From positions 1 to 64,000 of the forward strand of contig JADLGO010000013.1 of NCBI GenBank assembly GCA_020849275.1: a DNA stretch of 64,000 nucleotides, read 5' to 3'. The notes below the pieces were generated by a model. The model saw nothing but the letters and a program-made list of their open reading frames with translations. It searched no databases and was not told the DNA's origin. A program made the translations under genes and the position numbers. Below, one piece after another: positions 43,306 to 55,692 of this stretch. Every line of letters begins with the position of its first letter. The first letter of the stretch is position 1. The DNA comes from Chthonomonadales bacterium (GTDB taxonomy: Bacteria > Armatimonadota > Chthonomonadetes > Chthonomonadales > CAJBBX01).

Positions 43306-44562
43306 TCACTTCGGCTGAGGCAGCCGGAAGGAATGGAGCGTCTCCGTGACGCCGGTTTCGCGGCACTTGCGGAGCACCAGGCCGACGCCTCGCGCGAACC
43401 AGAGGTCGTAGGTGGAGCCGCCTGCGCTCTCCTGCGCGTGGAGGAGCTCGCGGAACGTGCCGCACGGCGTGGTCACCGCCGCGGGCACGGGCGCTCCCGC
43501 GGGCGCCTCCTTCAGGGTGTGCTGCTCGCGCCAGGGGCTCGCCGCGTCGGTCGGGCGGTTGCGCCGCCAGACGCGGTCGGCGGTAGTGAGCGTCTGGAAC
43601 GGCACGCGCAGGTCCTTCGCCAGCAGCGTCTCGCCCCGGTAGACCGTTCCGCCCGCCGCGGCGATGCCGCTGAGGATCCGTACCGTGTAGGCCGAGGTGG
43701 CGCCGCCACCCGCGACCTCGTAGCGCCACTCCGCGCCGACGGCGAGCGGGAACCAGGGGTTCGCGACGGCGACGACAGTGGGCAGGCGCCCGAGTACGGC
43801 GGCCAGGTCGACGTCCGGCGTGGCGGGGCCGGGCGACGAGGGGCGCGGCTGCCTGGCCAGCTCGGCGGCCTCCGCCTTCAGCCGCTTCAGGCGGTCACGA
43901 GCGGGCGGGTGGTCGCGCAAGTAGTCGGGCCCACCTCGACCGCCCTCCAGCTTCGCCATCACCTCCGCGGCCTGGATCCCTCCCTCCGTGTCGTATCCCG
44001 CCCGCCACATCATCCGCACGCCGGTGCGGTCGGCGTCGTCCTCGTTCTCGCGGCTGTACTGCAGCGAGACGAGCGTCTGGAGCATGGAGGGGATCTGGCT
44101 GTCGCCCAGCAGCACGGTGCCGACGATCGCGCCAACCTGCACGCCCTCCATCTTGCGCATTTGCGAAGCCCAGTGGCGATGCGCGGCGTGGGTGATCTCG
44201 TGCGCCATGACGAACGCGACGGCATCGTCGTTTGGCAGCCTGGCGAGCAGACCCTCGAAGACGTACATGAAGCCGCCGGGCAGGCAGAAGGCGTTGAACT
44301 CCGGCACGGCGAGCACGCGGAACTGGTAGGGGTAGGCGCGCTGGGGCATGGCGTCGATCAGCGCCTGGCCGATCCGGCGTACCCGCGCGTTGGCGGCGGC
44401 GTCCTTCGAGAGCGGAAGCTGCTTCTCGACCTCGCGCGCCACCTGGCGGCCGATCTCGATCTCCTTCTGTGGGTCCGTGCGCTCCAGGATCTGGGCGCGC
44501 AACGGGCCGGCCGCCAGAAGGGCGCCGACCAGCAGGAGGTATCCGGTGCGACGAGGCGACAT
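43306..44562 (-). CDS. M48-family zinc metalloprotease with a C-terminal beta domain
   Basis: This 418-residue exported protease has a signal peptide (1-23). It has the HExxH zinc site His121-Glu122-Ile-Thr-His125 and a downstream SRENEDDADRTG segment supplying the third ligand, as in BepA/M48 proteins. Residues about 255-418 form a separate beta-rich domain ending in a WFARGVGLVLRK motif seen in several exported lipoprotein-like proteins. BepA-type proteins maintain outer-membrane assembly. The ATG start places the signal peptide well; the ribosome-binding site is weak. It is the last gene of a long minus-strand series, 23 nt after a TPR-containing protein, which often partners M48 activity. 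Confidence 0.88.
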   Translation of the reverse strand: MSPRRTGYLLLVGALLAAGPLRAQILERTDPQKEIEIGRQVAREVEKQLPLSKDAAANARVRRIGQALIDAMPQRAYPYQFRVLAVPEFNAFCLPGGFMYVFEGLLARLPNDDAVAFVMAHEITHAAHRHWASQMRKMEGVQVGAIVGTVLLGDSQIPSMLQTLVSLQYSRENEDDADRTGVRMMWRAGYDTEGGIQAAEVMAKLEGGRGGPDYLRDHPPARDRLKRLKAEAAELARQPRPSSPGPATPDVDLAAVLGRLPTVVAVANPWFPLAVGAEWRYEVAGGGATSAYTVRILSGIAAAGGTVYRGETLLAKDLRVPFQTLTTADRVWRRNRPTDAASPWREQHTLKEAPAGAPVPAAVTTPCGTFRELLHAQESAGGSTYDLWFARGVGLVLRKCRETGVTETLHSFRLPQPK

Positions 44563-44585
44563 GGCGTATGGGCCTCTACTCCCCG

Positions 44586-46805
44586 TCAAGGGGCCGCGCC
44601 GTAGAATCGGGCATGGGCGGCCAGGCAGTATGCGGCGCCGGCGGTGTCGCCCTCCTCGGTGAGCAACTCGGCAAGCTTCAGGTTGGCGCGAGGATGGCGC
44701 GGGTTGCGGGTCAACGTCTCGCGGAGCCGGGCGGCGGCGGCGGAGCGGTCGCCGGCCTTCAGGGCGATGAGCGCCTGCGCGTAGAGGGCGTCAGCGTAGC
44801 CCGGCCTCAGCGCCAGGCACCGGGCGATCGGCTCGGCGGCCAGGTCGGCGTGGCCGAGCTCGATGAGCGCGGAGCCCAGGCCGAACTGCGAGAGGTAGTC
44901 GTTTGGGTCACGCTCCAGGCTGTGCAGGCTCTGGAGCAGCACGTAGTCGGCGTTGGCCTGCGGATAGGCGAAGGCGGCGATGGTAACGACGCTCGGGCTG
45001 CTGTAGCCCAGGAAGGGCAGGAACAGGCCGCCGGAGACGTCCGCGCCGGCGCGGCCGGTCTTGAGCGCCTCGCGGAGGGCGTTCTCCATCCGCTGCATCG
45101 TCTCGGCCGCCGCCGGGTCACCCGCCGCCTGCTGCCGGCGCGCCTTCACGTAGAGTAGGACGGCGTAGCTGTGCCAGGCGAAGAAGTCCTTGGACTCGCT
45201 CGTCTTGCCGCGCCTGTCGGTCAGTGTGACCTGGCTCTGGGCGGCGGCAAGCGCGTCGTCCAGATCGGCCTGGGGCTCGTCGGGGCCGGTGACGTGCAGA
45301 AGCCCGTAGGTAAGGTCCCGGCGGACGGCGCCCATGCCAGGGTCGGTCTTGAGGGCCTCGCGCAGCTCCTGCACGGCCTCGTCCCAGCGGCCCATGTCCA
45401 TCAGCACGCGCCCGTAGTGCGCGCGCGCTTCGGCGCTGTTCGGCCGCTCGCGCAGGCGCTCCGAGGCCTCGGCCAGCCGCAGGTCGGCGCGGAACGTGGC
45501 GGCCTCCGAGTATTGACCGGCGGTGGGCCACTCGGCCACCTCGTCCGCGACCTGGCGCGCGCGCTCGAGCTTGCCGCTCACCATATAGGCGCGGCCCAGC
45601 GCCACCATGAGCGGCAGCGGCACGCGCTCGGGGCGCTCCTGCTCGCGGACGCGCTCGACGAACGGCGCGTACTCCTTGATGGCCTGCGCGGCATCCCCGT
45701 TCAGCACGAGCGCGCGGGCATACGGGCCGAGCTCGGCCGTGCGCTGCTTCTCGGGCGTCATGTCGACGATGCGCTTCCAGGAGGCGGCGGCCGTCGCCGG
45801 GTCGTGGAGGGTCTCGCTGACCTCGGCAAGGCGCTTGAGGTCCCACACCGACGCCGCCGACGAGGCGGCGAGCGCCTTGAGCGCCACGGCGGCGTCCACG
45901 TTGCGCTGCTCCGCCAACATGGCGAAGGCGGCGGCGCGATCGCGCGCGGCCGCCTCCTGCGCGTCGTTCGTCACGATCTGCAGAAGTGCGGACTTGCGGT
46001 CGGCGCCCGGAGCGATGTCGTATGGGCAGCGCAGCACGCCGCCGACAAGGGTCTCCACGCGCTGCTCGCGCGCGCGTGGCGCGCGGAACTCGCCGCTGAA
46101 CGCGAGGATGCCGCCGGTCTGCTCGCGCGCGGGCTTAAGGTCCTTGAGGCCCCAGGACTCGGTCTGGCACGCCACGCGCACGTCGCGCATCCGGGGCAGC
46201 GGAGGCATGGCCACCAGCATCTGTACGGCGGCCCTGTCGCCGGGGCGCAGCACGGCTGGCTCCACGCGCACGTCCACCACGCGAACAACGCCCCAGCCGG
46301 GGGCCGTGGTGGAGACCTGGTCGCTGCCGGGCTTCGTGAGGAGCAGCGGCTCCATGGTGACGCGGAAACGCCCGGCGTCGAGGGCACGGCAGGGCACGAT
46401 GCCCTCGTAGGGGGTGTACCCGTCGGCGTCCACGCGAACGGGCAGGCGCGAGACATCGATCCGCTTGGTCTCGTTCGTCGCCCCGCCGAGGATCAGGCCG
46501 GCCAGGCCGGTGGACAGCAGGCGGCCGATGTCCAGGTTGGAGGAGCGCCGCCCCAGCATCGCCTGGCAGCGGTACTGGCCGGTCTCGTCGGTCTTGCCCG
46601 TCGTCTTCCCGGAATCCGCAAACGCTCCCTCGTGGCGCACGCTGACGCGCGCGGCGACGATCGGAGCGCCGGTCTCGGCGTCGTACACACGGCCGGTGAC
46701 CGCTCCCCAGTGGGTCGGCTCAATCGCCTTGTCGCGTTCCCGCCTGTCGTCGGCCCCGGCCGCGATGGCCAGCATCAGGAGCACGACGCAGATGGCTGTC
46801 CGCAT
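44586..46805 (-). CDS. Exported TPR protein with CarboxypepD-type N-terminal domain
   Basis: This 739-residue protein has a signal peptide (1-18). A regulatory-like beta domain (about 30-130: GAVTGRVYDAETGAPIVAARVSV) comes next, then another beta region (170-270), and many TPR helices. Clear repeats include ARAHYGRVLMDMGRWDEAVQELREALKTDPG and ADALYAQALIALKAGDRSAAAARLRETLTRNPRHP. It probably scaffolds proteins in the periplasm. The ATG at 46805 has GAGG upstream; the frame is open upstream but that part lacks a leader. It sits between aminopeptidase P and the M48 protease, suggesting a peptide/protein-processing function for the group. Confidence 0.78.
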   Translation of the reverse strand: MRTAICVVLLMLAIAAGADDRRERDKAIEPTHWGAVTGRVYDAETGAPIVAARVSVRHEGAFADSGKTTGKTDETGQYRCQAMLGRRSSNLDIGRLLSTGLAGLILGGATNETKRIDVSRLPVRVDADGYTPYEGIVPCRALDAGRFRVTMEPLLLTKPGSDQVSTTAPGWGVVRVVDVRVEPAVLRPGDRAAVQMLVAMPPLPRMRDVRVACQTESWGLKDLKPAREQTGGILAFSGEFRAPRAREQRVETLVGGVLRCPYDIAPGADRKSALLQIVTNDAQEAAARDRAAAFAMLAEQRNVDAAVALKALAASSAASVWDLKRLAEVSETLHDPATAAASWKRIVDMTPEKQRTAELGPYARALVLNGDAAQAIKEYAPFVERVREQERPERVPLPLMVALGRAYMVSGKLERARQVADEVAEWPTAGQYSEAATFRADLRLAEASERLRERPNSAEARAHYGRVLMDMGRWDEAVQELREALKTDPGMGAVRRDLTYGLLHVTGPDEPQADLDDALAAAQSQVTLTDRRGKTSESKDFFAWHSYAVLLYVKARRQQAAGDPAAAETMQRMENALREALKTGRAGADVSGGLFLPFLGYSSPSVVTIAAFAYPQANADYVLLQSLHSLERDPNDYLSQFGLGSALIELGHADLAAEPIARCLALRPGYADALYAQALIALKAGDRSAAAARLRETLTRNPRHPRANLKLAELLTEEGDTAGAAYCLAAHARFYGAAP

Positions 46806-46906
46806 GGCGTGCCTCGCGTGGCCCGCCGGCCACGCCGAGTTGGCGGGCCGGCGACCGTGCGCTCCGTGGGGCGAGCGCGCCGCGCCGGCCGGCGGGGTGG
46901 CTGTCG

Positions 46907-48313
46907 TCATTCGTCTTTCCCCAGCAGACGCGGTCTTCGCTCCCCCCGGGCCGCCGGCGCCGCGCCCATGCCGCGCATGGCGGCCTCGACCTCGACGACC
47001 CCGGATGGCAGCGCATTCGAGAGCTTCTCGATACCGCGCTCCGTCACCAGGTAGTCGTCCTCAATACGTATGCCCGTCCTCTCCGAAGGGATGTAGACGC
47101 CGGGCTCGATGGTGAGCACGACGCCGGGCTCTATCGGCGCCTCGATGCTGCCGACATCGTGCACGTCCATTCCAAGCCAGTGGCCGATGCCGTGCGTGAA
47201 GAACCGGTCCATCGTGCTCATGCGCCGGGCACCGTCGGCGGCGCGCAACGGGCTCGCCCGAAGATGGGCGGTGGCGCGGCGCTGGAGGTCGCGCAGCGTG
47301 GTGCGGCCCGGCACCACGCTCTCCGCGCAAGCGCGCTGTGTGTCCAGCACAAGCTCGTAGAGCTCGCGCTGGCGGCGCGAGAAGCGCCCGCCGACCGGCC
47401 AGGTCCGGGTCAGGTCAGCGGTGTAGTAGTTGACTTCGGCGCCGATGTCGACCACGGCCAACTCCCCCGCGCGCACCGGCCGCGCGCCCGCCAGGTGGTG
47501 GATGGAGACTGCATCGGGCCCGCTCGCCACCACGCACGGGAACCCCTCTCGCACCGCGCCCGCGCCGCGGAAGGCGGCCAGGATGGCGCCCTCCACCTCG
47601 AGCTCGGAGCGCCCAGCGCGAAGCGCCCTCGCCGCCGCCATCTGCCCGGCCACCGTCGCCCGCACGGCCGCGCGCAGGTTCGCCACCTCCCCCGGCGACT
47701 TCACGCGCCGCAGCGGATGAATGAAGGAGGCCGCGGTCGGCTCCACCGCGATCGCCGGGCGGATCGCGCGCAAGCGCGCCTCGAGCGCGCCGGGCGGACC
47801 GGGCGCCAGGTCATCACCAGAGGGCTCGACCGAAATGACCGCGGCTGCCCGAATCGCCGGCTCCAGGGCCCGCCACATCTCGGCCGCCGGAAGGACGCGC
47901 TCGATCCCGGTCTCGCGCTCGGCCTCCCTGCCCGGGAGCGGGTAGGGGCGCGGCGCTCCGGCCGGCTCCCCCGGAAGGAACAGGATCTCGCGCGCGCCGG
48001 CCGGCGAGCCGGGCGGCAACAGAGCCAGCCATGCCCCCGGCGCCTCGACGCCGGTCAGGTAGAGCAGATCGCTGTCCGTGCGGAACCGGCTGCGGTCCGA
48101 ATCCTCGTTCTCGGTCGGTCCGCGCAGTAGGACGACCGCGTCCCCGGCGGCCGCGCGCACCCGCTCACGACGCCGGGCGAACTCACCCGACGAGAGGCCG
48201 AACATGGGCGCCCACGCGGCGACGGCCGCGGCGACGGCCGCGGCAGAGAGCGCGAGCAGGACGAGCGCCGGGCACCCGGCGGCCGTCGACAGGGTGTGGC
48301 GAGAGGTTCGCAT
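46907..48313 (-). CDS. pepP: Aminopeptidase P-type (M24B) Xaa-Pro peptidase with an N-terminal membrane leader
   Basis: This 468-residue protein has the AMP-N domain (FARRRERVRAAAGDAVVLLRGPTENEDSDRSRFRTDSDLLYLTG) and the pita-bread catalytic domain. Metal ligands are visible: Asp in VVDIGAEVNYY, Asp in TADLTRTWP, His in THGIGHWLG, Glu in LTIEPGVYIP and Glu in GIRIEDDY. Unusually, a hydrophobic stretch (about 14-34) precedes the AMP-N domain, so the enzyme may be exported or anchored rather than cytosolic. No strong ribosome-binding site is seen at ATG 48313. It lies 39 nt after the 6-phosphogluconate dehydrogenase gene, within a minus-strand series. Confidence 0.9.
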   Translation of the reverse strand: MRTSRHTLSTAAGCPALVLLALSAAAVAAAVAAWAPMFGLSSGEFARRRERVRAAAGDAVVLLRGPTENEDSDRSRFRTDSDLLYLTGVEAPGAWLALLPPGSPAGAREILFLPGEPAGAPRPYPLPGREAERETGIERVLPAAEMWRALEPAIRAAAVISVEPSGDDLAPGPPGALEARLRAIRPAIAVEPTAASFIHPLRRVKSPGEVANLRAAVRATVAGQMAAARALRAGRSELEVEGAILAAFRGAGAVREGFPCVVASGPDAVSIHHLAGARPVRAGELAVVDIGAEVNYYTADLTRTWPVGGRFSRRQRELYELVLDTQRACAESVVPGRTTLRDLQRRATAHLRASPLRAADGARRMSTMDRFFTHGIGHWLGMDVHDVGSIEAPIEPGVVLTIEPGVYIPSERTGIRIEDDYLVTERGIEKLSNALPSGVVEVEAAMRGMGAAPAARGERRPRLLGKDE

Positions 48314-48352
48314 GGTATCTGGCGGCCGCCAGGCACGCGCGGGGGTCGGCGC

Positions 48353-49249
48353 CTACTGCTTCTCGACGGCGTGGCCTCCGAACTCGCGTCGGAGCGCCGC
48401 GATGACCCTGGCCGAGAACGACTCCTCCTGGCGAGAGGCGAGGCGCGCGAGCAGTGAGAGCGTGATGACCGGCGCGGGCACGTTCTCGTCGATGGCGGCC
48501 TGGACCGTCCAGCGGCCTTCGCCGCTGTCGGCGACATAGCCCTTGATGCTCGCCAGGTCGGCCTCGCGCGAGAACGCGTGCTCGGCGAGCTCCAGCAGCC
48601 AGGAGCGGACCACGCTTCCTCGGCCCCAGAGGTGGCACAGCTTCTCCAGATCGTAGCCGAACGAGGACGCGTGCAGGATCTCGAAGCCCTCGCCGTAAGC
48701 CTGGAGCATGCCATACTCGATGCCGTTGTGGACCATCTTGGCGAAGTGGCCGGCGCCGCTCGGGCCGACGCGCGCGTAGCCCTCGGGCGGGGCCAACGTG
48801 CGTATGGCGGGCTCCAGACGCGCGAACGCCTCCGGCGTGCCGCCGACCATCAGGCAGTAGCCGACCTCCTGACCCCAGACGCCGCCTGAAGTGCCGGCAT
48901 CCAGGTAGCCGATGCCCTTCGCGGCAGCCTCGCCCGCGCGCTGGATGCTCTCCTGGTAGTGCGAGTTCCCGCCGTCGACTAGGGTGTCTCCTGCGGCGAG
49001 GTGGGGCATCAACCCGGCGATCGTCTCGGCAACGGCGGGGCCGGCGGGGACCATCATCCAGATGGCGCGGGGCGAGCGCAGGCGGCCGGCAAGCTCCTCC
49101 AGAGAGGTCGCGCCGATGGCTCCGCGCGCCGTCGCCTCCTCCACCGCGGCCGGATTGTGGTCATAGACCACCACCTCGTGGCCACCATCGAGCAAACGCT
49201 GCGTCATGTGGGCGCCCATTCGCCCAAGTCCGACCATCCCCAGTTGCAT
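48353..49249 (-). CDS. gnd: 6-phosphogluconate dehydrogenase, decarboxylating, short (YqeC-type) form
   Basis: This 298-residue enzyme converts 6-phosphogluconate to ribulose-5-phosphate. It has MQLGMVGLGRMGAHM (NAD(P) fold), LVDGGNSHYQESI, the GTSGGVWG loop, and the catalytic lysine segment HFAKMVHNGIEYGMLQAYGEG. The length fits the short NAD-preferring class rather than the 470-residue Gnd. ATG at 49249 has GGGAGGGAC 7 nt upstream. It joins the xylulose and ribulose branch of the pentose phosphate route, but lies in a series with envelope genes. Confidence 0.92.
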   Translation of the reverse strand: MQLGMVGLGRMGAHMTQRLLDGGHEVVVYDHNPAAVEEATARGAIGATSLEELAGRLRSPRAIWMMVPAGPAVAETIAGLMPHLAAGDTLVDGGNSHYQESIQRAGEAAAKGIGYLDAGTSGGVWGQEVGYCLMVGGTPEAFARLEPAIRTLAPPEGYARVGPSGAGHFAKMVHNGIEYGMLQAYGEGFEILHASSFGYDLEKLCHLWGRGSVVRSWLLELAEHAFSREADLASIKGYVADSGEGRWTVQAAIDENVPAPVITLSLLARLASRQEESFSARVIAALRREFGGHAVEKQ

Positions 49250-49351
49250 CGGGCCGTCCCTCCCATGGCGTCGGCCCGCGGCAGTCACGAGCGGGCGCGC
49301 GTAGTGGGTAATACGGACCGCCGCCGGGCGCGGTTCGACACCCGCCCGGAC

Positions 49352-50149
49352 CTACAGCGGCGACTGACAGACGCCGCCGTCCACCAGCAGCGAGATGCCG
49401 GCGATGTACGAGGCCCGCTCGGACGCCAGGAAGACGACCGCGTCGGCGATCTCGCGCGGCTCGGCGAGGCGGCCCACCGGGATGGCGCGCGCCGTGTCGG
49501 CCAGCGCCTCCTCGGGCGTGATGCCGCGCTCCGCGGCGCGCACACGCGCCAGGTGGTGCGCCCGATCAGTGAGCGTGTTGCCAGGGAGGATCGCGTTGAC
49601 GAGCACGCCGTCCGGCGCCACCTGGTTGGCCATCGTGCGCGTGAGCGCCGAGAGGCCGGTGCGGAGCGTGCTGGAGATCGTGAGATCGTCGGAGGGCTGT
49701 TTCGCCACGAGCGAGGTCAGGTGGACGATGCGGCCCCAGCGGCGGCGCTGCATGACGGGCAGCACGAGGCGGCTGAGCCGCACCACGTTCATCAACGTAG
49801 ACTGCACGCCCTCTTCCCACTGCGTGTCGGTCAGCTCGAGGAAGCGCCTGGCGGGCGGGCCGCCCGTGTTGGTGACCAGGATGTCCACCTCGCCGAGCGC
49901 CGCGACCGTCTGGCCGTGCCAGGCCTCGAGGTCTTCGGCGCGCGACACGTCCGCGCGGATCGCTGCCACGCCCTCCGCGGGCGCCCCCGCGGCGAGGAGC
50001 GCCTCGCGCGCCTCGTCGAGCCCGTCCTCGGAGCGGGCGCAGATGGAAACGCGACAGCCCTCGACCGCGAGGCCAAGGGCGACCGCGCGCCCGATGCCCT
50101 TGCTGGCCGCGGCCACCATCGCGACCCGGCCCTGGATGCCCATGTCCAC
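49352..50149 (-). CDS. Short-chain dehydrogenase/reductase with a non-standard active site
   Basis: This 265-residue Rossmann protein has [19 protein letters not shown] at the nucleotide site (TGxxxGxG changed to AAASKGIG), TNTGGPPAR in place of NNAG, and the C-terminal [12 protein letters not shown]. The catalytic Tyr-x-x-x-Lys is absent: the aligned segment reads [15 protein letters not shown], so Tyr is Ser and Lys is Arg. A divergent SDR group annotated as FabG-like has the same pattern (SNxLR). It may bind cofactor without classic reduction. GTG at 50149 follows GGAG at 9 nt; ATG at 50143 is the alternative. It is 26 nt after the DsbA-like gene. Confidence 0.8.
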
Positions 50150-50175
50150 GTGCCGACGCTCCGTTCCGCCGCCCT

Positions 50176-50862
50176 CTACTTCAGGTTGGCCGGGTCCTCC
50201 ATGTAGGCGGTCATCTGACCCAGGTTGCTGAACCGCATCGTCTCGGCGCCCGGGCGCACCAGGAAGAAGGTTGGCGTGCCAAACACGCCGAGCTTCTGCG
50301 CAAGCGTTTCCTGCCGCTCCACGGTCTCTTCCGCCGCCTTCGACTGCATGTCGTTGCGGAACTTGAGCATGTCCAGCTTCAGGCCGGCCGCGATCTTCAT
50401 GATGGCGTCGGTCACGGCGGTCGACGTGGCGCCGGCGAACTCGGCCTGCTTGCTGTAGATGGCGGCGTGCATGGGCCAGAACTTCCCCTGGAGCTGCGCG
50501 GCGGCGGCGGCGCGCGCCAGGACTCGGGCGTTCGTGTGGGTCTGCGTGGCCTGCATGTGGATGAAGGCCGCCTCGAGCTTCTTCGGGTACTCCCCAACGA
50601 GCTTGGCCACCGCGGTGTCCGCGAGCTTGCACTGCGGGCACTGGTAGTCGCCGACCTCGACGAGGAGGTACGGCGCGTCCCTGGGGCCGCGCACGGGCAC
50701 GCCCTCGGGAAGGAGGGTCTTTCGGTCGTAGGTGACGGTGCCGGGCGGGCTGGCACCGTCACCGCGTCTGCCGTTGGCGATGACCGGGTAGACCGCGATC
50801 GCCACCAGGATGACGGCGACGACGAGTATGCCCACGAAGAGCTTGACCTCACCGGATTTCAC
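50176..50862 (-). CDS. DsbA-like membrane-anchored thiol oxidoreductase
   Basis: This 228-residue protein has an N-terminal membrane helix (about 8-29), then a DsbA/DsbG-type thioredoxin fold with Cys75-Pro-Gln-Cys78 and a cis-proline in FGTPTFFLV. The helical insertion between them is DsbA-like. It should introduce disulfides into exported proteins, reoxidised by the VKOR protein whose gene is only 5 nt upstream. The start is GTG, with GGAGGA about 8 nt ahead. It lies in the same run as two Lpt-like genes. Confidence 0.88.
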
Positions 50863-50867
50863 AGAAG

Positions 50868-51386
50868 CTATCCTCCAGGACGGGACCCGAGCGGAGCGCT
50901 CTCGGCGCCAGGCGTGGCAACGGGGTCGGTGCCCACCTCAGGCGCGCGCCGGGCGGCCGCCGCGGAGAGCGTGATGAAGATGAGCAGGGTGATGATGGCG
51001 GAGGCGACGCACCACTGGCACCAGGCGTGAATCACGGCGCCCTCCACCCAGGTGAGCCAGGCCGCTACCACGACCCCCCCGAGGGCCAGGAGCCACTGCA
51101 GGCGCGCCGCCGTTCGCGCGGTCCGTTCGGAGAAGACGACGCGCAGAAAGCTGAGCGCCGCCACGGCCAGGTACATGGCCAGGCCGAACGCTGCCGTCGG
51201 GATGCCGCTCAGCGCCGGAATGCCCAGGCCATGCGCTCGCGGATCGCTGGCTACCACGTCGCAGCCGTGCAGTGGGCCGCACACCAGCTCCATGTAGTGG
51301 AGATGCGCCAGGGTCAGGTAGCCCGCGACCCCCGCGCCGGCCAGCGCGAGCACGAAGACGATGCGGTTGGCGAGCGCGCTCTTCAT
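50868..51386 (-). CDS. VKOR-family disulfide-forming membrane protein
   Basis: This 172-residue protein has four or five membrane helices and the VKOR pattern. The outer-loop cysteines are Cys36 and Cys42 (ELVCGPLHGCDVV), Ser60 is in ALSGIPTAAFGL, and the quinone-side active site is Cys123-Gln-Trp-Cys126. Bacterial VKOR replaces DsbB and passes electrons from a DsbA partner to quinone. The ATG at 51386 overlaps the lptA-like stop (ATGA). The DsbA-like gene follows at 5 nt, giving a complete oxidising pair. Confidence 0.91.
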   Translation of the reverse strand: MKSALANRIVFVLALAGAGVAGYLTLAHLHYMELVCGPLHGCDVVASDPRAHGLGIPALSGIPTAAFGLAMYLAVAALSFLRVVFSERTARTAARLQWLLALGGVVVAAWLTWVEGAVIHAWCQWCVASAIITLLIFITLSAAAARRAPEVGTDPVATPGAESAPLGSRPGG

Positions 51387-52348
51387 GGGCTCCCCTGCGC
51401 CGGACGCGGCGCGCCGGGCTGCCCCCTGGCCGGGGCCGGCGGCTGCGCCGGCTTACGCGGGGGCGGCGACTCGGCCGGCGAGCCGCCGGCGGGGGGCTCC
51501 TCGTCCTCCTCGATGGGCAGCGTATAGGTGCCGCGTTTGAGCTGCAGCGCCTCGGCGCCCTCCCGCGTGCCGATCACCACGTCCTCGGCCGTGTCGCCCT
51601 TGCGGCCATGTGTGTCCTCGAAGTGGACCGGGCCGCGCAAGAGAACGCGGTCCTCGTTGCCGAACCACTCGGCCTTCGCGGCCGTCAGCGTACGCGTGGT
51701 GTCGGGCAGCTTCTGCACGGCCTGAAACGAGCCCGAGAGCACGGCGTGGCGCACGCCGCGCGCGTACTGGTACTCCACGCGTTCACAGGTCACCTCGATA
51801 GGTTGGCGCCGCGCATCGCGGATACTCTCGTCGGCGTCGCTCTCCGGGGGAGTCGTAGGCGCCTCCGCCGCGGCTCCCGGCGCGCTGTCGGCGGGCTTCG
51901 GTTTGAGCGCCATCCGCACGTCGCCGGTCAGCACGATCAGCCGCCGCCCGCGCGCGTAGTCGATCTCAGCGCTCTCAGCCGTCGCGTCGACCTGAGGATC
52001 GGTCATCCGCAGGTGACCGGTGGCTCGCGCCCTTCTCTGGCGGTCGTTCCACTGGAACAAGTCGGAGCGAATCACAGCGCCCTCGTCCGAGGTCGCGACG
52101 ACACCCCTGGCGTGTCCCTCGCCCGTCGCGTCGCTATGGGTGAGCTCGTCGAAGGCGATGGTCCAGGGCTGCTGCCTGGCGGGCTCTGCGGCGGCCGCCG
52201 GCGCGCGGCGAGGCGCCCCGGCCTGACCGTACACAACCAGCGCCGCCAGCGCGGCGAGCGCCGCGGCCGCGATCGGCAGCGCCGTCGGACGGACGGCGCG
52301 CCGCAATGCTGGCGGCCATGAGCCCGGCGGGCGGCGGCGGGACGGCAT
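51383..52348 (-). CDS. lptA: LptA/OstA-like LPS-transport bridge protein
   Basis: The reading gives 321 residues from ATG 52348 or 328 from ATG 52369. AGGA precedes the first, so I prefer it. A hydrophobic anchor near residues 20-40 is followed by repeated beta strands typical of the OstA jelly roll: IAFDELTHSDATGEGHARG, ATGHLRMTDPQVDATAESAEIDYARGRRLIVLTGDV, VTCERVEYQYARGVRHAVLSGSFQAVQ and VLLRGPVHFEDTHGRKGDTAEDVVIG. LptA forms the periplasmic path for LPS. A Pro/Ala-rich tail of about 45 residues follows. It is paired with an LptC-like gene and overlaps VKOR. This supports an outer membrane. Gene symbol is by family. Confidence 0.78.
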   Translation of the reverse strand: MPSRRRPPGSWPPALRRAVRPTALPIAAAALAALAALVVYGQAGAPRRAPAAAAEPARQQPWTIAFDELTHSDATGEGHARGVVATSDEGAVIRSDLFQWNDRQRRARATGHLRMTDPQVDATAESAEIDYARGRRLIVLTGDVRMALKPKPADSAPGAAAEAPTTPPESDADESIRDARRQPIEVTCERVEYQYARGVRHAVLSGSFQAVQKLPDTTRTLTAAKAEWFGNEDRVLLRGPVHFEDTHGRKGDTAEDVVIGTREGAEALQLKRGTYTLPIEEDEEPPAGGSPAESPPPRKPAQPPAPARGQPGAPRPAQGSP

Positions 52349-52424
52349 CAGGTCCTGGCTTCCTGTCATTCGCCAAAGTGGGGCACGGAGTGCGGCGGCC
52401 GCGCGGGCGCACGCGCAAGCGCCC

Positions 52425-53207
52425 TCACGGCGGCCCCCGAAGGGCCTCTCCGGAGTCTATACGCACGCGCGCCCGGCCTTCGTTCGCCGTCACCGTCCGC
52501 CGCTTCAGGTCCACGACGGCGCGACGGGCAACCACGGACATGGCCGGGCCGGTGGTGGCGACGGCGCCAGTGCACACCAGGAGCTCCGCATCGACGTCCC
52601 AGTCGAGCGAGCCGGCGCGCACGAGGCCGCCGCGCGCCCTCACTTCCGCGCCCTGCGGGCACTGCACTCGCCGCTCGCGGAGCGCGTAAGTCACATTCGG
52701 GGCGCTCAGATCGCATCCCTGGAGCCGCCCGTGCGCGCCGGCGGGGAACACGACGGCGTCTTCCTGCTCCGTCCACGCGCAGCGATCGGCCTCGAGGCGG
52801 TCGCCCTGCCGCGACCGGACGCGGATCGCGCCGAGCGCCTCAATGCGGCGTCGCGGCTGATCGTAGGTGGCGGAAGCCGCGCTGAAGCGCGCCTGCGGCC
52901 GGCCGTCGCGATAGACGACGCCGCGGCGAATGCCGCGGAACTCGGCCCTAACGTACGAGTCGAGGTCGCCGGGCGCCGCCGGACGAACCGTGATGGTCGC
53001 GGCCTCCATGCGCCAGCGCGGCTTGCCCTCGACGCGGGCGATCATGAGCGCGCCCTGGGCTCGCAGGGCGACGTCCACCGGGCCCGCCGCGCGCTGCCAC
53101 CCGGCGGACGGGTCGAAGCGCCGGGCCACGCGGAGGAGGGCGACCAGCCCGGCGAGGACCGCAAGGGCGGCCAGGCACGCCAGGAGCCTGCGCGCGGATG
53201 GCGTCAT
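52425..53207 (-). CDS. lptC: LptC-like membrane-anchored protein
   Basis: This 260-residue protein has one N-terminal helix (RRLLACLAALAVLAGLVALL), then OstA/LptC-like beta strands: MIARVEGKPRWRMEAATITVRPA, RAEFRGIRRGVVYRDGRPQARFSAASATYDQPRRRIEALGAIRVRSRQGDRLEADRCAWTEQE. LptC hands LPS from the inner-membrane transporter to LptA, which fits the next gene. The family is diverse, so the assignment rests on topology and neighbours. A terminator separates it from the upstream lipoprotein gene, so it likely begins the long minus-strand operon. Confidence 0.72.
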   Translation of the reverse strand: MTPSARRLLACLAALAVLAGLVALLRVARRFDPSAGWQRAAGPVDVALRAQGALMIARVEGKPRWRMEAATITVRPAAPGDLDSYVRAEFRGIRRGVVYRDGRPQARFSAASATYDQPRRRIEALGAIRVRSRQGDRLEADRCAWTEQEDAVVFPAGAHGRLQGCDLSAPNVTYALRERRVQCPQGAEVRARGGLVRAGSLDWDVDAELLVCTGAVATTGPAMSVVARRAVVDLKRRTVTANEGRARVRIDSGEALRGPP

Positions 53208-53223
53208 GGGATGCCGAACGCGA

Positions 53224-53261
53224 AGGCCCCTCGCGTGCCCCCGGGGGAGCGCGAGGGGCCT
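53224..53261 (-). terminator. Terminator of the lipoprotein gene
   Basis: AGGCCCCTCGCG (53224-53235) pairs perfectly with CGCGAGGGGCCT (53250-53261). The loop (53236-53249) contains the further palindromic run CCCCCGGGGG. It lies between the stop at 53286 and the lptC-like start. Confidence 0.75.
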
Positions 53262-53285
53262 CGCCGGTCGCGTGGAGTCAGCCGC

Positions 53286-53831
53286 CTACCGTGGGCACTG
53301 GAAGACGGGCGGAGGCGGCGCGGCCGTGTCGGGAAAGACGTAAGCGGGCTTGAGCTCCTTGTCGGCAGCCAGGACCCCGCCGGTCGCGGGATAGCACTTG
53401 CCGGTGTCGGCCTGGTTGTTGCGCGTGAAGTCATACGTGCGCCCGTCGTAGCGTAGCATGTCGGCATAGTAGCCCGTGGAGGGCGCGTCCACCTCGAACT
53501 GGCTGGCCGTGTTCGGCACGCTGGCGAACTTGTAGAAGCCGTTCGCGCCGGTAGTCGTGCTCGCGAGCTCCGCGCCCGCGTTGTTGCGCAGCACCACCCT
53601 GGCGCCGGGCACGGCCGCCGTGGTGCCGTCGCGGTACACCTTCCCGCAGATCGCCGGGGGCGAGCCGGCCGCGCTCCCGCACACGCCGGCGCCGCCGCCC
53701 CCCCCGCCGCCATTACCGCCTCCGCCTCCGCCGCCGCCGCAGCCGAGCAGTACCGTCACCGACGAGAGCGCCAGCGCGATGGCGAGCTTGTGCCAGCCAG
53801 CGACGGCGCCGGGATGGGCCCTGAGGGTCAT
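53286..53831 (-). CDS. Lipoprotein with a CarboxypepD-regulatory-like domain
   Basis: This 181-residue protein has a lipoprotein leader ending VLLGC (Cys at about residue 31), then a Gly-rich linker (GGGGGGGGNGGGGGGG). A single beta-sandwich domain follows: ICGKVYRDGTTAAVPGARVVLRNNAGAELASTTTGANGFYKFASVP, the carboxypeptidase regulatory-like pattern. Such domains are usually adhesion or scaffold modules. AGGAGGA is 7 nt before the ATG. It has its own promoter and terminator, so it is separate from the Lpt series. No partner is predictable. Confidence 0.82.
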   Translation of the reverse strand: MTLRAHPGAVAGWHKLAIALALSSVTVLLGCGGGGGGGGNGGGGGGGAGVCGSAAGSPPAICGKVYRDGTTAAVPGARVVLRNNAGAELASTTTGANGFYKFASVPNTASQFEVDAPSTGYYADMLRYDGRTYDFTRNNQADTGKCYPATGGVLAADKELKPAYVFPDTAAPPPPVFQCPR

Positions 53832-53909
53832 GAAGGCGTCCTCCTAACAGGGTGAGCTGAGTGCAGCGGGGAATATCGACGACGCGACTCGCCTGTTCAT
53901 CAGGTTCGC

Positions 53910-53938
53910 ATTATACACGTCAGGCCGCTCGAACGCAA
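53910..53938 (-). promoter_or_regulatory. Promoter of the lipoprotein gene
   Basis: On the minus strand TTGCGT (53933-53938) and a perfect TATAAT (53910-53915) are 17 bp apart, about 80 nt before the ATG at 53831. Confidence 0.62.
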
Positions 53939-54246
53939 GCGCCAAACGTCAGGGCGCCGATGGGGCCCCGCGATCCACTACCAACCCCGGTCGTGGTAGG
54001 TGGTCGATCGGGTCGCATGGTGTCAGGGCGTCGACTGGACGCGGCCCGTGGGCCCGACGTCGCCCTTGACAGCCCGGGCAACTGGCCTCGCTATGGAGAC
54101 AAGCGCGGCGGTGCTGCCGCCCCGAGGCAACGCGCCGGGAGCGGGTGGGAACCCGGCTTCCACGGCGCGCGGCCACGCCCCGCGAACCGGCGTTCGCGGG
54201 GCAGCGTGCGCTGGACCGTGCCGCGCGCGAAAGCGAGGCCTGCCGC
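53939..54246. other. Non-coding, hairpin-rich stretch
   Basis: I see no gene here. TTGACA occurs at 54066 without a good -10 box. A perfect 10-bp stem (54177-54186 with 54193-54202, loop CCGGCG) and a GGCGG/CCGCC stem near 54110 could be leader structures for the tiny ORF that follows. It does not match a riboswitch I know. Confidence 0.4.
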
Positions 54247-54441
54247 ATGGCCAGGAACGCCGCACTCCTCGGCGCCCTGCTGGTGCTGGTCCTCGTCAGC
54301 CTGCCGGCATCCTCTCGTGGCGCCCGGGTGATGCTGGAGGGCGCCCACTACCGCCTGCGCCGGGGCATGGTCGAGGGCGGCTCCGACAGCGTGACGCCGT
54401 ACCCCCGCAATGGACCCCCGGCCCCTACTGCTTCTAGATGA
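54247..54441 (+). CDS. Small secreted peptide, 64 residues
   Basis: ATG at 54247 starts a short ORF with a clear signal-peptide-like beginning (MARNAALLGALLVLVLVSLPASSRG). The mature part is about 40 residues (ARVMLEGAHYRLRRGMVEGGS, then a Pro/Thr-rich tail). GCGAGG is about 8 nt ahead. Its stop (TGA 54439-54441) overlaps the ATG of another tiny ORF. It may be the beginning of a broken larger gene. No family is recognised. Confidence 0.45.
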   Translation: MARNAALLGALLVLVLVSLPASSRGARVMLEGAHYRLRRGMVEGGSDSVTPYPRNGPPAPTASR

Positions 54442-54575
54442 GCACCTTTGTCAGCGTCCGGGTGGCGCCGGACACGGGTAAGGTGGTCGTCCGAGGCCAT
54501 CGCGGCCGAAGTGTCGATCGCCGAACTCTAGAGCACGGAGGGCGCGAGAAGCAAGGAGCAGGAGGTGCCGGATGA
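54438..54575 (+). CDS. Tiny ORF, 45 residues, coupled on both sides
   Basis: ATG at 54438 overlaps the preceding stop, and its TGA (54573-54575) overlaps the ATG of the next ORF. It opens MSTFVSVRVAPDTGKVVVRG, then becomes basic and Gly-rich. No ribosome-binding site of its own is clear. It may be a real coupled peptide or, more likely, part of a decayed gene. Confidence 0.25.
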   Translation: MSTFVSVRVAPDTGKVVVRGHRGRSVDRRTLEHGGREKQGAGGAG

Positions 54576-54887
54576 GCAGCTATCTCGATCGCATCGCCCC
54601 ACTGGCGGCCTGGCTGCTGGGGGCGGTGCTGGTGGTCGCGGCCTGCGAGGGCGCGGCCGGGTCGGCGCGGCAGGGAGCGGGAGTGACCGCGGCCGACCTC
54701 AAGTCCCTCATGTACGCAGACACGATCCCCCGATTCCACGAGCGACCCGCGGGCGAATGGGCGCCCGCTGGACCTGGGCGTCAGCGTGCTGCTGGGCCGG
54801 GACGGGCCGGTGGTGCCGCTGCGCAAGGTGGCGGAGGCGCTGGGCCTGAGGTCGCGGGAGAGCGCCACGACGCTGCATCTGGGCTGA
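54572..54887 (+). pseudogene. Frameshifted exported protein with a copper-amine-oxidase-N-like end
   Basis: AGGAGGTG stands before ATG 54572. The frame opens with a lipoprotein-type leader (LLGAVLVVAAC) and a segment VTAADLKSLMYADTIPRFHERPAGEW, then becomes low-complexity Gly/Ala. In another frame from about 54760 the text reads GRPLDLGVSVLL, then RDGPVVPLRKVAEALGL and ATTLHLG to TGA 54885-54887. That is the pattern of the copper amine oxidase N-terminal (stalk) domain (VPLRAVAEALG). One base gained or lost near 54760 would join them. So the gene is frameshifted, or there is a sequencing error. Confidence 0.55.
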
Positions 54888-54999
54888 CGGGGTTGCCGGG
54901 CCGGACGCCACCCGGGCGTTCGGCCCGCCTCCCGCCCCCGCTCGCCACCGCCTAACGCGCGGCGCGTCGCCGAGCGGCAGGGCGCGCGGCGTGCCGGCG

Positions 55000-55692
55000 T
55001 CACTCGCGGGGCGGATCGGCCGTGCGGCCGTTGGGATGCCCCCCGTTCCAGTTGTAGAGCCGCCGCCCGAGCCGCCCGTAGACCGGGTCGTGGCCAGGCC
55101 GTCCGTAATGCGCGACCTCCACGCTGACCACGTGGCCGTCGGCCGCGGCCACGTTCATGCGTCGGTGATGCGGCGAGGCGTAGACGTTGGGCCACCACGC
55201 CGTGTCCCAGTACCAGATGAGCGCCCACGGGCCGGCCGGGCGCCCGAAGGGCCCGCGCGGGCGGTAGGCCCCCCCCTCGGCCAGCAGCACTGTCTGCTCG
55301 GGCAACTCCAGGTTCTCGAGCGGGTAGGGAGCTTGCGAGAAGAAGCCGCCGAAGCGGGCGTTGAGCGCGTAGCTGGTGCCGACCGCGTACCCGTAGTAGG
55401 GGTCCACCGCGCCCATAGGGGGGTTGGCCGGGCAGTGCGTCGCTGGTTCGCCGCTCAGGTAGGGCCTTGCGAGCGCGTCCCAGGTAAGCCAGATCCCGCC
55501 CTCGATGCACCGCTCAGCCGGCGGCAGGCGCCAGTCGTGATCCTGCGAGTAGAGCAGCAGCGCCGTGCCCAACCGCCGCTGGTTGCTCAGGCAGGCGGTG
55601 CGGGCCATCTGCACGGAGCGCCAACTGAGCGTCGGCACCGCGGCTGCGGCCAGGGCAGCGAGCAGGGCCGCGCCGCAGCCCGCAAGGCGCAT
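55000..55692 (-). CDS. Pseudopilin-like protein lacking the canonical leader
   Basis: This 230-residue secreted protein has an N-terminal hydrophobic helix (GCGAALLAALAAAAVPTL), then ARTACLSNQRRLGTALLLYSQDHDWRLPP, as in DUF1559-type proteins. It ends with an H-x-DG-like motif (HHRRMNVAAADGHVVSV). The usual FTLIELL prepilin sequence is missing, so it may be processed by signal peptidase I or anchored. ATG at 55692 was chosen to put the helix near the N-terminus; ribosome binding is weak. A small membrane-protein gene lies 29 nt upstream. Confidence 0.72.
   Translation of the reverse strand: MRLAGCGAALLAALAAAAVPTLSWRSVQMARTACLSNQRRLGTALLLYSQDHDWRLPPAERCIEGGIWLTWDALARPYLSGEPATHCPANPPMGAVDPYYGYAVGTSYALNARFGGFFSQAPYPLENLELPEQTVLLAEGGAYRPRGPFGRPAGPWALIWYWDTAWWPNVYASPHHRRMNVAAADGHVVSVEVAHYGRPGHDPVYGRLGRRLYNWNGGHPNGRTADPPRE

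Follow-up and report, generated by a model that had tools for sequence, protein, structure and literature searches.

A second LptC-LptA gene pair joined to a VKOR-DsbA thiol-oxidase pair in one family of Armatimonadota

We describe here a closely packed run of four genes on the minus strand of a 64,000-nucleotide stretch of DNA from a Chthonomonadales bacterium (positions 1 to 64,000 of contig JADLGO010000013.1; hereafter the ‘window’), in which a second LptC-LptA pair, of the kind that forms the lipopolysaccharide (LPS) bridge, is followed directly by a VKOR-DsbA thiol-oxidase pair. The order is kept across most of one Armatimonadota family and, with moderate confidence, we interpret it as a regulatory coupling between the second LptC-LptA pair and a general VKOR-DsbA system within that family, rather than as a folding system dedicated to LPS. 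The window forms part of contig 13 of a 4.80 Mb genome, for which completeness is rated at 99.92%. In order of transcription, the four genes are:

52425 to 53207, minus strand: lptC2, encoding an LptC-like protein of 260 amino acids (ATG start), the model of which shows a membrane helix at the N-terminus (residues 3-30) and a beta-jellyroll
51383 to 52369, minus strand: lptA2, encoding an LptA-like beta-jellyroll protein of 328 amino acids from the ATG at 52369, assigned by family profile and by AlphaFold/Foldseek
50868 to 51386, minus strand: VKOR-family thiol oxidase of 172 amino acids (ATG start; Pfam VKOR, 1.1e-20)
50176 to 50862, minus strand: DsbA/BdbD-like thiol oxidase of 228 amino acids (GTG start; Pfam DSBA, 3e-14)

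A gap of 55 nucleotides separates lptC2 from lptA2, the ATG of VKOR lies over the TGA of lptA2 in a 4-nucleotide overlap, and 5 nucleotides lie between VKOR and dsbA; the four genes, the ATGA overlap and the 5-nucleotide gap set down in a first-pass annotation of this DNA are thus all borne out by the coordinates. An alternative start for lptA2, a TTG at 52306, would give a protein of 307 amino acids.

The same annotation had suggested looking for this order in relatives, and there it was indeed found. Within a family sample of 12 Armatimonadota genomes, our own included, the complete order lptC2-lptA2-VKOR-dsbA is present in nine (our own, G001, G004, G005, G006, G008, G009, G010 and G011), and in G007 it is cut where the contig ends inside lptA2. 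The VKOR proteins of the linked relatives are 45-51% identical to that of the window over the alignment, and retention of the order in 9/12 genomes at this level of identity, while the gene after dsbA differs, points to more than chance. Spacing was measured at eight linked loci, with the VKOR start of G001 and G005 set by hand at a position that is not a start codon: lptC2 and lptA2 overlap by 4 nucleotides in seven of the eight, lptA2 and VKOR by 4 nucleotides in four, and the VKOR-dsbA spacing lies between -4 and 9 nucleotides in all eight. Among the matches listed for the open-access literature, titles and the beginnings of abstracts named no lptC-lptA-VKOR-dsbA arrangement for Armatimonadota or Chthonomonas.

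Assignment of the first two proteins to Lpt families holds, on sequence profiles and predicted models, once relatives are included. Taken singly, both fall below the relevant cut-offs: LptC2 against Pfam LptC (PF06835) gives an E-value of 0.33 and 11 bits (cut-off 21), and LptA2 gives 0.0086 and 16.7 bits against Pfam LptD_N (cut-off 20.4) and 19.2 bits against TIGR03002 (cut-off 71.7). Across the family alignments LptC is matched at E<=0.1 by 24/33 members and LptD_N by 28/31, although both alignments hold fused LptC-LptA proteins, such that these counts mix the two domains. A profile of the LptA2 family (31 rows) reaches a solved LptA at 1.6e-4 in a search of the PDB, where all 20 chains at E-values up to 10 are LptA, LptH or LptD. 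AlphaFold models of LptA2 and LptC2 (mean predicted local distance difference test scores of 83.3 and 91.4, respectively) have as their best Foldseek matches LptA 2r19 (2.6e-4) and the LptC of the LptBFGC complex, 6mit chain C (1.8e-7). Profile and model therefore both place LptA2 with the OstA/LptA-type jellyrolls, and LptC2 is predicted to have an N-terminal membrane anchor followed by an LptC/OstA-type beta-jellyroll. Alignment of the models with VIA-align gave Z 12.8 (root-mean-square deviation 2.4, 124 aligned) for LptA2 against LptA 2r1a_C, with LptD chains scoring higher, and Z 14.9 (2.8, 145 aligned) for LptC2 against 6mit_C, with LptD chains scoring similarly, and Z 13.2 for LptC2 against LptC 4b54; with LptD chains at or above these scores, the models settle the class of fold but not the exact Lpt role. 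MORN-repeat proteins also appear, at Z of about 10 and below the best Lpt rows, which we take as a shared arrangement only. As to the earlier expectation that the pair should match Lpt profiles, then, the single proteins fall short, whilst the LptA family profile and both models do find solved Lpt proteins, with the modelled LptA-like fold, when compared as had been proposed, finding LptA itself first.

The second half of the block is more readily named. The VKOR protein belongs to its family by profile and carries the four catalytic cysteines, Cys36/Cys42 in the loop and Cys123/Cys126 in the CxxC motif, all invariant in 13/13 aligned relatives; it is the only VKOR match in its genome. The DsbA-like protein, for which the nearest solved structure by sequence is BdbD (2.2e-12), has a DsbA-type thioredoxin domain with a CxxC site, seen as CPQC in the alignment. 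We take this CPQC site, together with a TPT motif, to be thiol-oxidase motifs. VKOR is present in 45/59 genomes and DsbB was matched in none of the 59, where the same search was positive in 6/14 control genomes, E. coli included; the view that VKOR stands in place of DsbB is thereby strengthened. With its four VKOR cysteines, CPQC in DsbA, adjacent genes and lack of a DsbB match, the pair resembles the VKOR-DsbA pairs of other DsbB-less bacteria, but differs in being preceded by lptC2-lptA2 in one closely packed run. At a further locus (L049) a single frame holds both the VKOR and the DsbA match, and many other VKOR matches sit in open frames of around 370-510 amino acids, long enough for fusions.

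If the oxidase has a client in LPS export, LptD is a plausible candidate. Disulfide formation has been linked to LPS export in E. coli, where LptD functions only if it has the C1-C3 bond, the C2-C4 bond or both (PMC10567701). The organism's own LptD is a 773-amino-acid protein encoded after lptG, which has no Pfam match alone; a profile of its family (36 rows) reaches solved LptDs at 5e-17. Alignment with three known LptDs puts Cys180 on the TxC cysteine in two of them and Cys721 on the second cysteine of the CC pair in the third, so that the two would sit where known LptDs have their TxC (‘taco’) and CC (‘barrel’) cysteines and, by position via these other LptDs, should be E. coli C2 (173) and C4 (725). 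LptD was matched in 57/59 genomes, and its cysteines were counted in 55, G002 (a paralogue-like match only) and G021 (partial) having been dropped. Cys180 is present in 55/55 and Cys721 in 51/55, with both in 51/55, in keeping with the cysteine pairs that the first-pass annotation had proposed to look for in LptD homologues. The four without Cys721 (G041, G042, G046 and G072) all have VKOR; in these proteins His-Asp replaces His-Cys at the C-terminal cysteine, and the N-terminal one stays. Set against E. coli LptD (C1 to C4; PMC10567701), the Armatimonadota LptDs read share two cysteines that correspond by position to C2 and C4 and are nearly universal, but our own LptD has these two cysteines only, and the oxidase is of the VKOR type.

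Bringing these observations together, we propose a model in which an operon-like block in one Armatimonadota family joins two modules. The first would be a second LptC-LptA pair, consisting of a membrane-anchored LptC2 and a periplasmic LptA2 jellyroll, together with a lipoprotein-like neighbour; the second would be a disulfide-forming pair, in which VKOR passes electrons from DsbA to quinone and so replaces DsbB. We suggest that the four genes are co-transcribed, and that DsbA/VKOR may act as the general oxidase of the cell, with LptD, and perhaps also LptC2, amongst its clients, such that a shared transcript would serve to keep the supply of oxidase in step with the building of the LPS bridge.

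A number of observations weigh against this reading. The linkage is missing from two of the 12 family genomes: lptC2-lptA2 and VKOR-dsbA lie on separate contigs in G002, and in G003 LptA2 was matched neither anywhere in the genome nor in the 327 nucleotides that precede VKOR. Outside the family, dsbA is adjacent to or fused with VKOR at all seven of the VKOR loci read, and an Lpt gene stands beside the pair at none of them; conversely, 20 LptA2 loci (19 outside the family plus that of G002), read for up to 6 kb on each side, held no VKOR or DsbA match. The linked genomes are relatives, and their number is not a count of independent events; the family tree (VKOR, DsbA, LptD) is poorly resolved, with 25-89% support at the deeper nodes. 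A scan of 46500-55500 found no sigma-70-type promoter pattern, and terminator-like sites in that interval are at chance level (2 against 1.9 expected, one of them inside lptA2), so that co-transcription rests on spacing. Furthermore, both LptD cysteines are retained in 13/13 genomes where VKOR was not matched; the presence of VKOR therefore does not predict the LptD disulfide and VKOR is not dedicated to LptD, the disulfide itself, as judged from cysteine conservation, being probably general in the phylum and independent of VKOR.

Of two stronger claims, one was rejected on these grounds and the other is unsupported. A phylum-wide association of the LptD cysteines with VKOR fails on the 13 VKOR-less genomes and on the four lacking Cys721, which have VKOR; and an operon dedicated to oxidative folding for LPS export is too strong a claim, given that VKOR-DsbA occurs without Lpt genes at every outside locus and that the LptD pair is kept without VKOR. 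The original proposal, that oxidative folding is coupled to production of the LPS bridge, thus stands as a linkage at the level of the family, seen there and at none of the loci read outside it, but not as an oxidase pair reserved for the bridge.

Adjacency without function is the alternative that survives best, and one that we regard as possible though clearly the less probable: a VKOR-DsbA unit would have landed beside lptC2-lptA2 in the ancestor of the family and simply persisted. The genes that flank the block bear on this:

53286 to 53831, minus strand: Gly-rich lipoprotein-like protein with a carboxypeptidase-regulatory (transthyretin-like) domain (PF13620, 1.3e-8; lipobox by eye), preceding lptC2
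49352 to 50149, minus strand: short-chain dehydrogenase (Pfam, 9e-48), after dsbA

Each module is found alone elsewhere, and in both family members that lack the link, G002 and G003, the dehydrogenase still follows VKOR-dsbA, which argues that VKOR-dsbA is an independent unit. Upstream of the block the arrangement is likewise stable, the lipoprotein-like gene preceding lptC2 in 7/8 complete linked relatives (the exception being G005), so the junction is not alone in having persisted. Against this, the junction is kept at around 50% VKOR identity with the 4-nucleotide start-stop overlap in half of the loci measured, and the gene after dsbA varies among the linked genomes: the dehydrogenase was found there in G004, G007 and G010 (which bear the order, or have it cut), and was not found in the stretches read of G001, G005, G006, G008, G009 and G011. 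It appears, then, that a lipoprotein-lptC2-lptA2 unit has been joined to a VKOR-dsbA unit.

We also considered whether LptC2 and LptA2 are themselves the clients, in which case DsbA-VKOR would stabilise the second bridge by a disulfide, either inside LptC2 or linking it to LptA2; we judge this unlikely. The cysteines of the two proteins bear on it. LptA2 carries Cys174 (307-amino-acid numbering) in a motif TC[DE]xx[ED]Y, present in 28/31 rows and in all four VKOR-less genomes with sequence (G056, G193, G209 and G243), and among the matches listed for the open-access literature we saw nothing on a second LptC-LptA pair that is widespread and keeps a cysteine. In LptC2, Cys183 is present in ten family sequences and in G012, whilst Cys143 is present in all nine complete linked genomes and absent from G002 and G012, the nearest unlinked ones read. 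From the sequences, this pattern fits a change of LptC2 into a client at the time when the oxidase genes joined it. It may, though, represent one event, since a tree with weak support puts G002 inside the family. Counted by family, a periplasmic cysteine in LptC2 occurs in 9/10 with separate genes against 2/6 with fused ones, as if a covalent link became dispensable after fusion; this comparison (Fisher p 0.036) is weak, with family f3 counted on both sides and the test chosen after seeing the data. Standing further against LptC2 and LptA2 as clients, the counts come from related genomes, and the LptA2 cysteine is kept in 9/10 fusions of another family, f29, which have no other periplasmic cysteine. 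As a separate matter, we had entertained homology between LptA2 Cys174 and LptD Cys180, which an unmasked profile alignment had placed together, but did not uphold it when masking of the cysteines shifted the register at an unchanged score (64.3 vs 64.6).

The window pair is one of two LptC-LptA sets in this genome. A cluster of lptC-lptA-lptB-lptF lies on contig 70 (its lptC, which has no Pfam match, being identified by position and by weak similarity to the LptC of the window) and lptG-lptD lies on contig 21, so we rejected the window pair as the only or main Lpt bridge of the organism; on this point the reading in the first-pass annotation needs correction. In common with the E. coli pair, the beta-jellyrolls and the membrane-anchored LptC upstream of LptA are kept, and the genome also carries LptB, two LptF/LptG proteins, LptD and LpxC; the differences are that the window pair is not beside lptB, that it is a second set besides another lptC-lptA, that LptA2 has a conserved cysteine, and that the genes are fused in several families of the phylum. 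LptA2 is matched in 202 of 237 phylum genomes with completeness of at least 85%, of which a few may be other jellyroll proteins, this being a single-sequence search. The loci read mostly have LptA2 behind an LptC2 gene or as an LptC2-LptA2 fusion, with G020 having no called LptC2; fusions of several jellyroll domains are known in Gram-negative bacteria (PMC3944529).

Among 14 other genomes checked, 11 have lptB-lptF with preceding genes at a place distinct from the LptA2 match: two genes precede lptB in ten of these and one long gene does so in G079, and in 10/11 at least one gene before lptB matches the LptC or LptA queries. Two further genomes, G163 and G171, both of family f29, have no lptB beside lptF, and G003 has, on a short contig, an LptA match of the contig-70 type before lptF. 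In f29 the LptC2-LptA2 fusion is followed by lpxC in 9/10 loci (the exception being G171), which ties the second pair to LPS; in G163 (locus L105) fabZ-, lpxA- and lpxB-like genes come after lpxC. LpxC is present in 58/59 genomes, and LPS genes in Armatimonadetes were already known (PMC5007114, PMC5629042 and PMC4072686). That LptC2-LptA2 carries some other envelope lipid, as the presence of an lptCABF set alongside it in our own genome and in 11/14 others might suggest, we hold to be improbable, given the fusion that precedes lpxC in f29 and the f29 lptF that, in the two genomes checked, is without matching lptB, lptC1 and lptA1 beside it.

Some further observations were made at these loci. 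Across loci L050 and L279-L291, the gene behind lptF often encodes a protein resembling the one at L050, which matches DUF3084 (PF11283), and at several lptF loci there follows a small conserved protein, RuvC-like by eye. In G002 (loci L040 and L088), rated 94% complete, LpxC, LptC2 and LptA2 are present, with no LptF/LptG match and no full LptD.

The lipoprotein-like neighbour recurs outside the window. At 11/20 LptA2 loci the gene directly preceding lptC2 or its fusion encodes a Gly-rich lipoprotein-like protein (by eye) or a carboxypeptidase-regulatory-domain protein. Nine of these 11 were tested, along with a neighbour in G177 that lies one gene further away; of the ten, 8 match PF13620 or PF13715, and the two that do not are from G163 and G171. 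At E<=0.1 a search matched LptE in 7/32 genomes, and above the Pfam cut-off in one, a point of difference from the E. coli system; the same search was positive in only 3/14 control genomes, which makes the absence of LptE weak. We infer that the lipoprotein might be a candidate LptE counterpart. A more elaborate scheme, in which LptC2-LptA2 and the transthyretin-like lipoprotein form a second, thiol-bearing LPS bridge that makes a disulfide inside itself or hands one on to LptD at its barrel cysteine, and in which the operon of one family gained VKOR-DsbA, so that oxidation switches on assembly, strikes us as the most doubtful of the explanations considered.

Behind the short-chain dehydrogenase that comes after dsbA, the same strand carries a gene resembling 6-phosphogluconate dehydrogenase and one for an M24 peptidase; no tRNA was found in the window, nor any RNA family reaching its gathering score. 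Also on the minus strand, at 43306-46910, an M48 peptidase lies directly after a TPR protein; its best PDB match is an M48 peptidase (1.2e-27), with the BepA peptidase domain at 7.6e-16, and in E. coli BepA assists LptD maturation (PMC3944529). No match to the M48 peptidase or the TPR protein was found near VKOR in the family relatives.

A functional coupling between the LPS bridge and the thiol oxidase is, in our view, plausible in this family. With DsbB unmatched in the genomes sampled, a cysteine pair kept in nearly all LptDs and VKOR-DsbA placed beside genes of the Lpt bridge in one family, the part that oxidation plays in LPS export can be put to the test far from E. coli.

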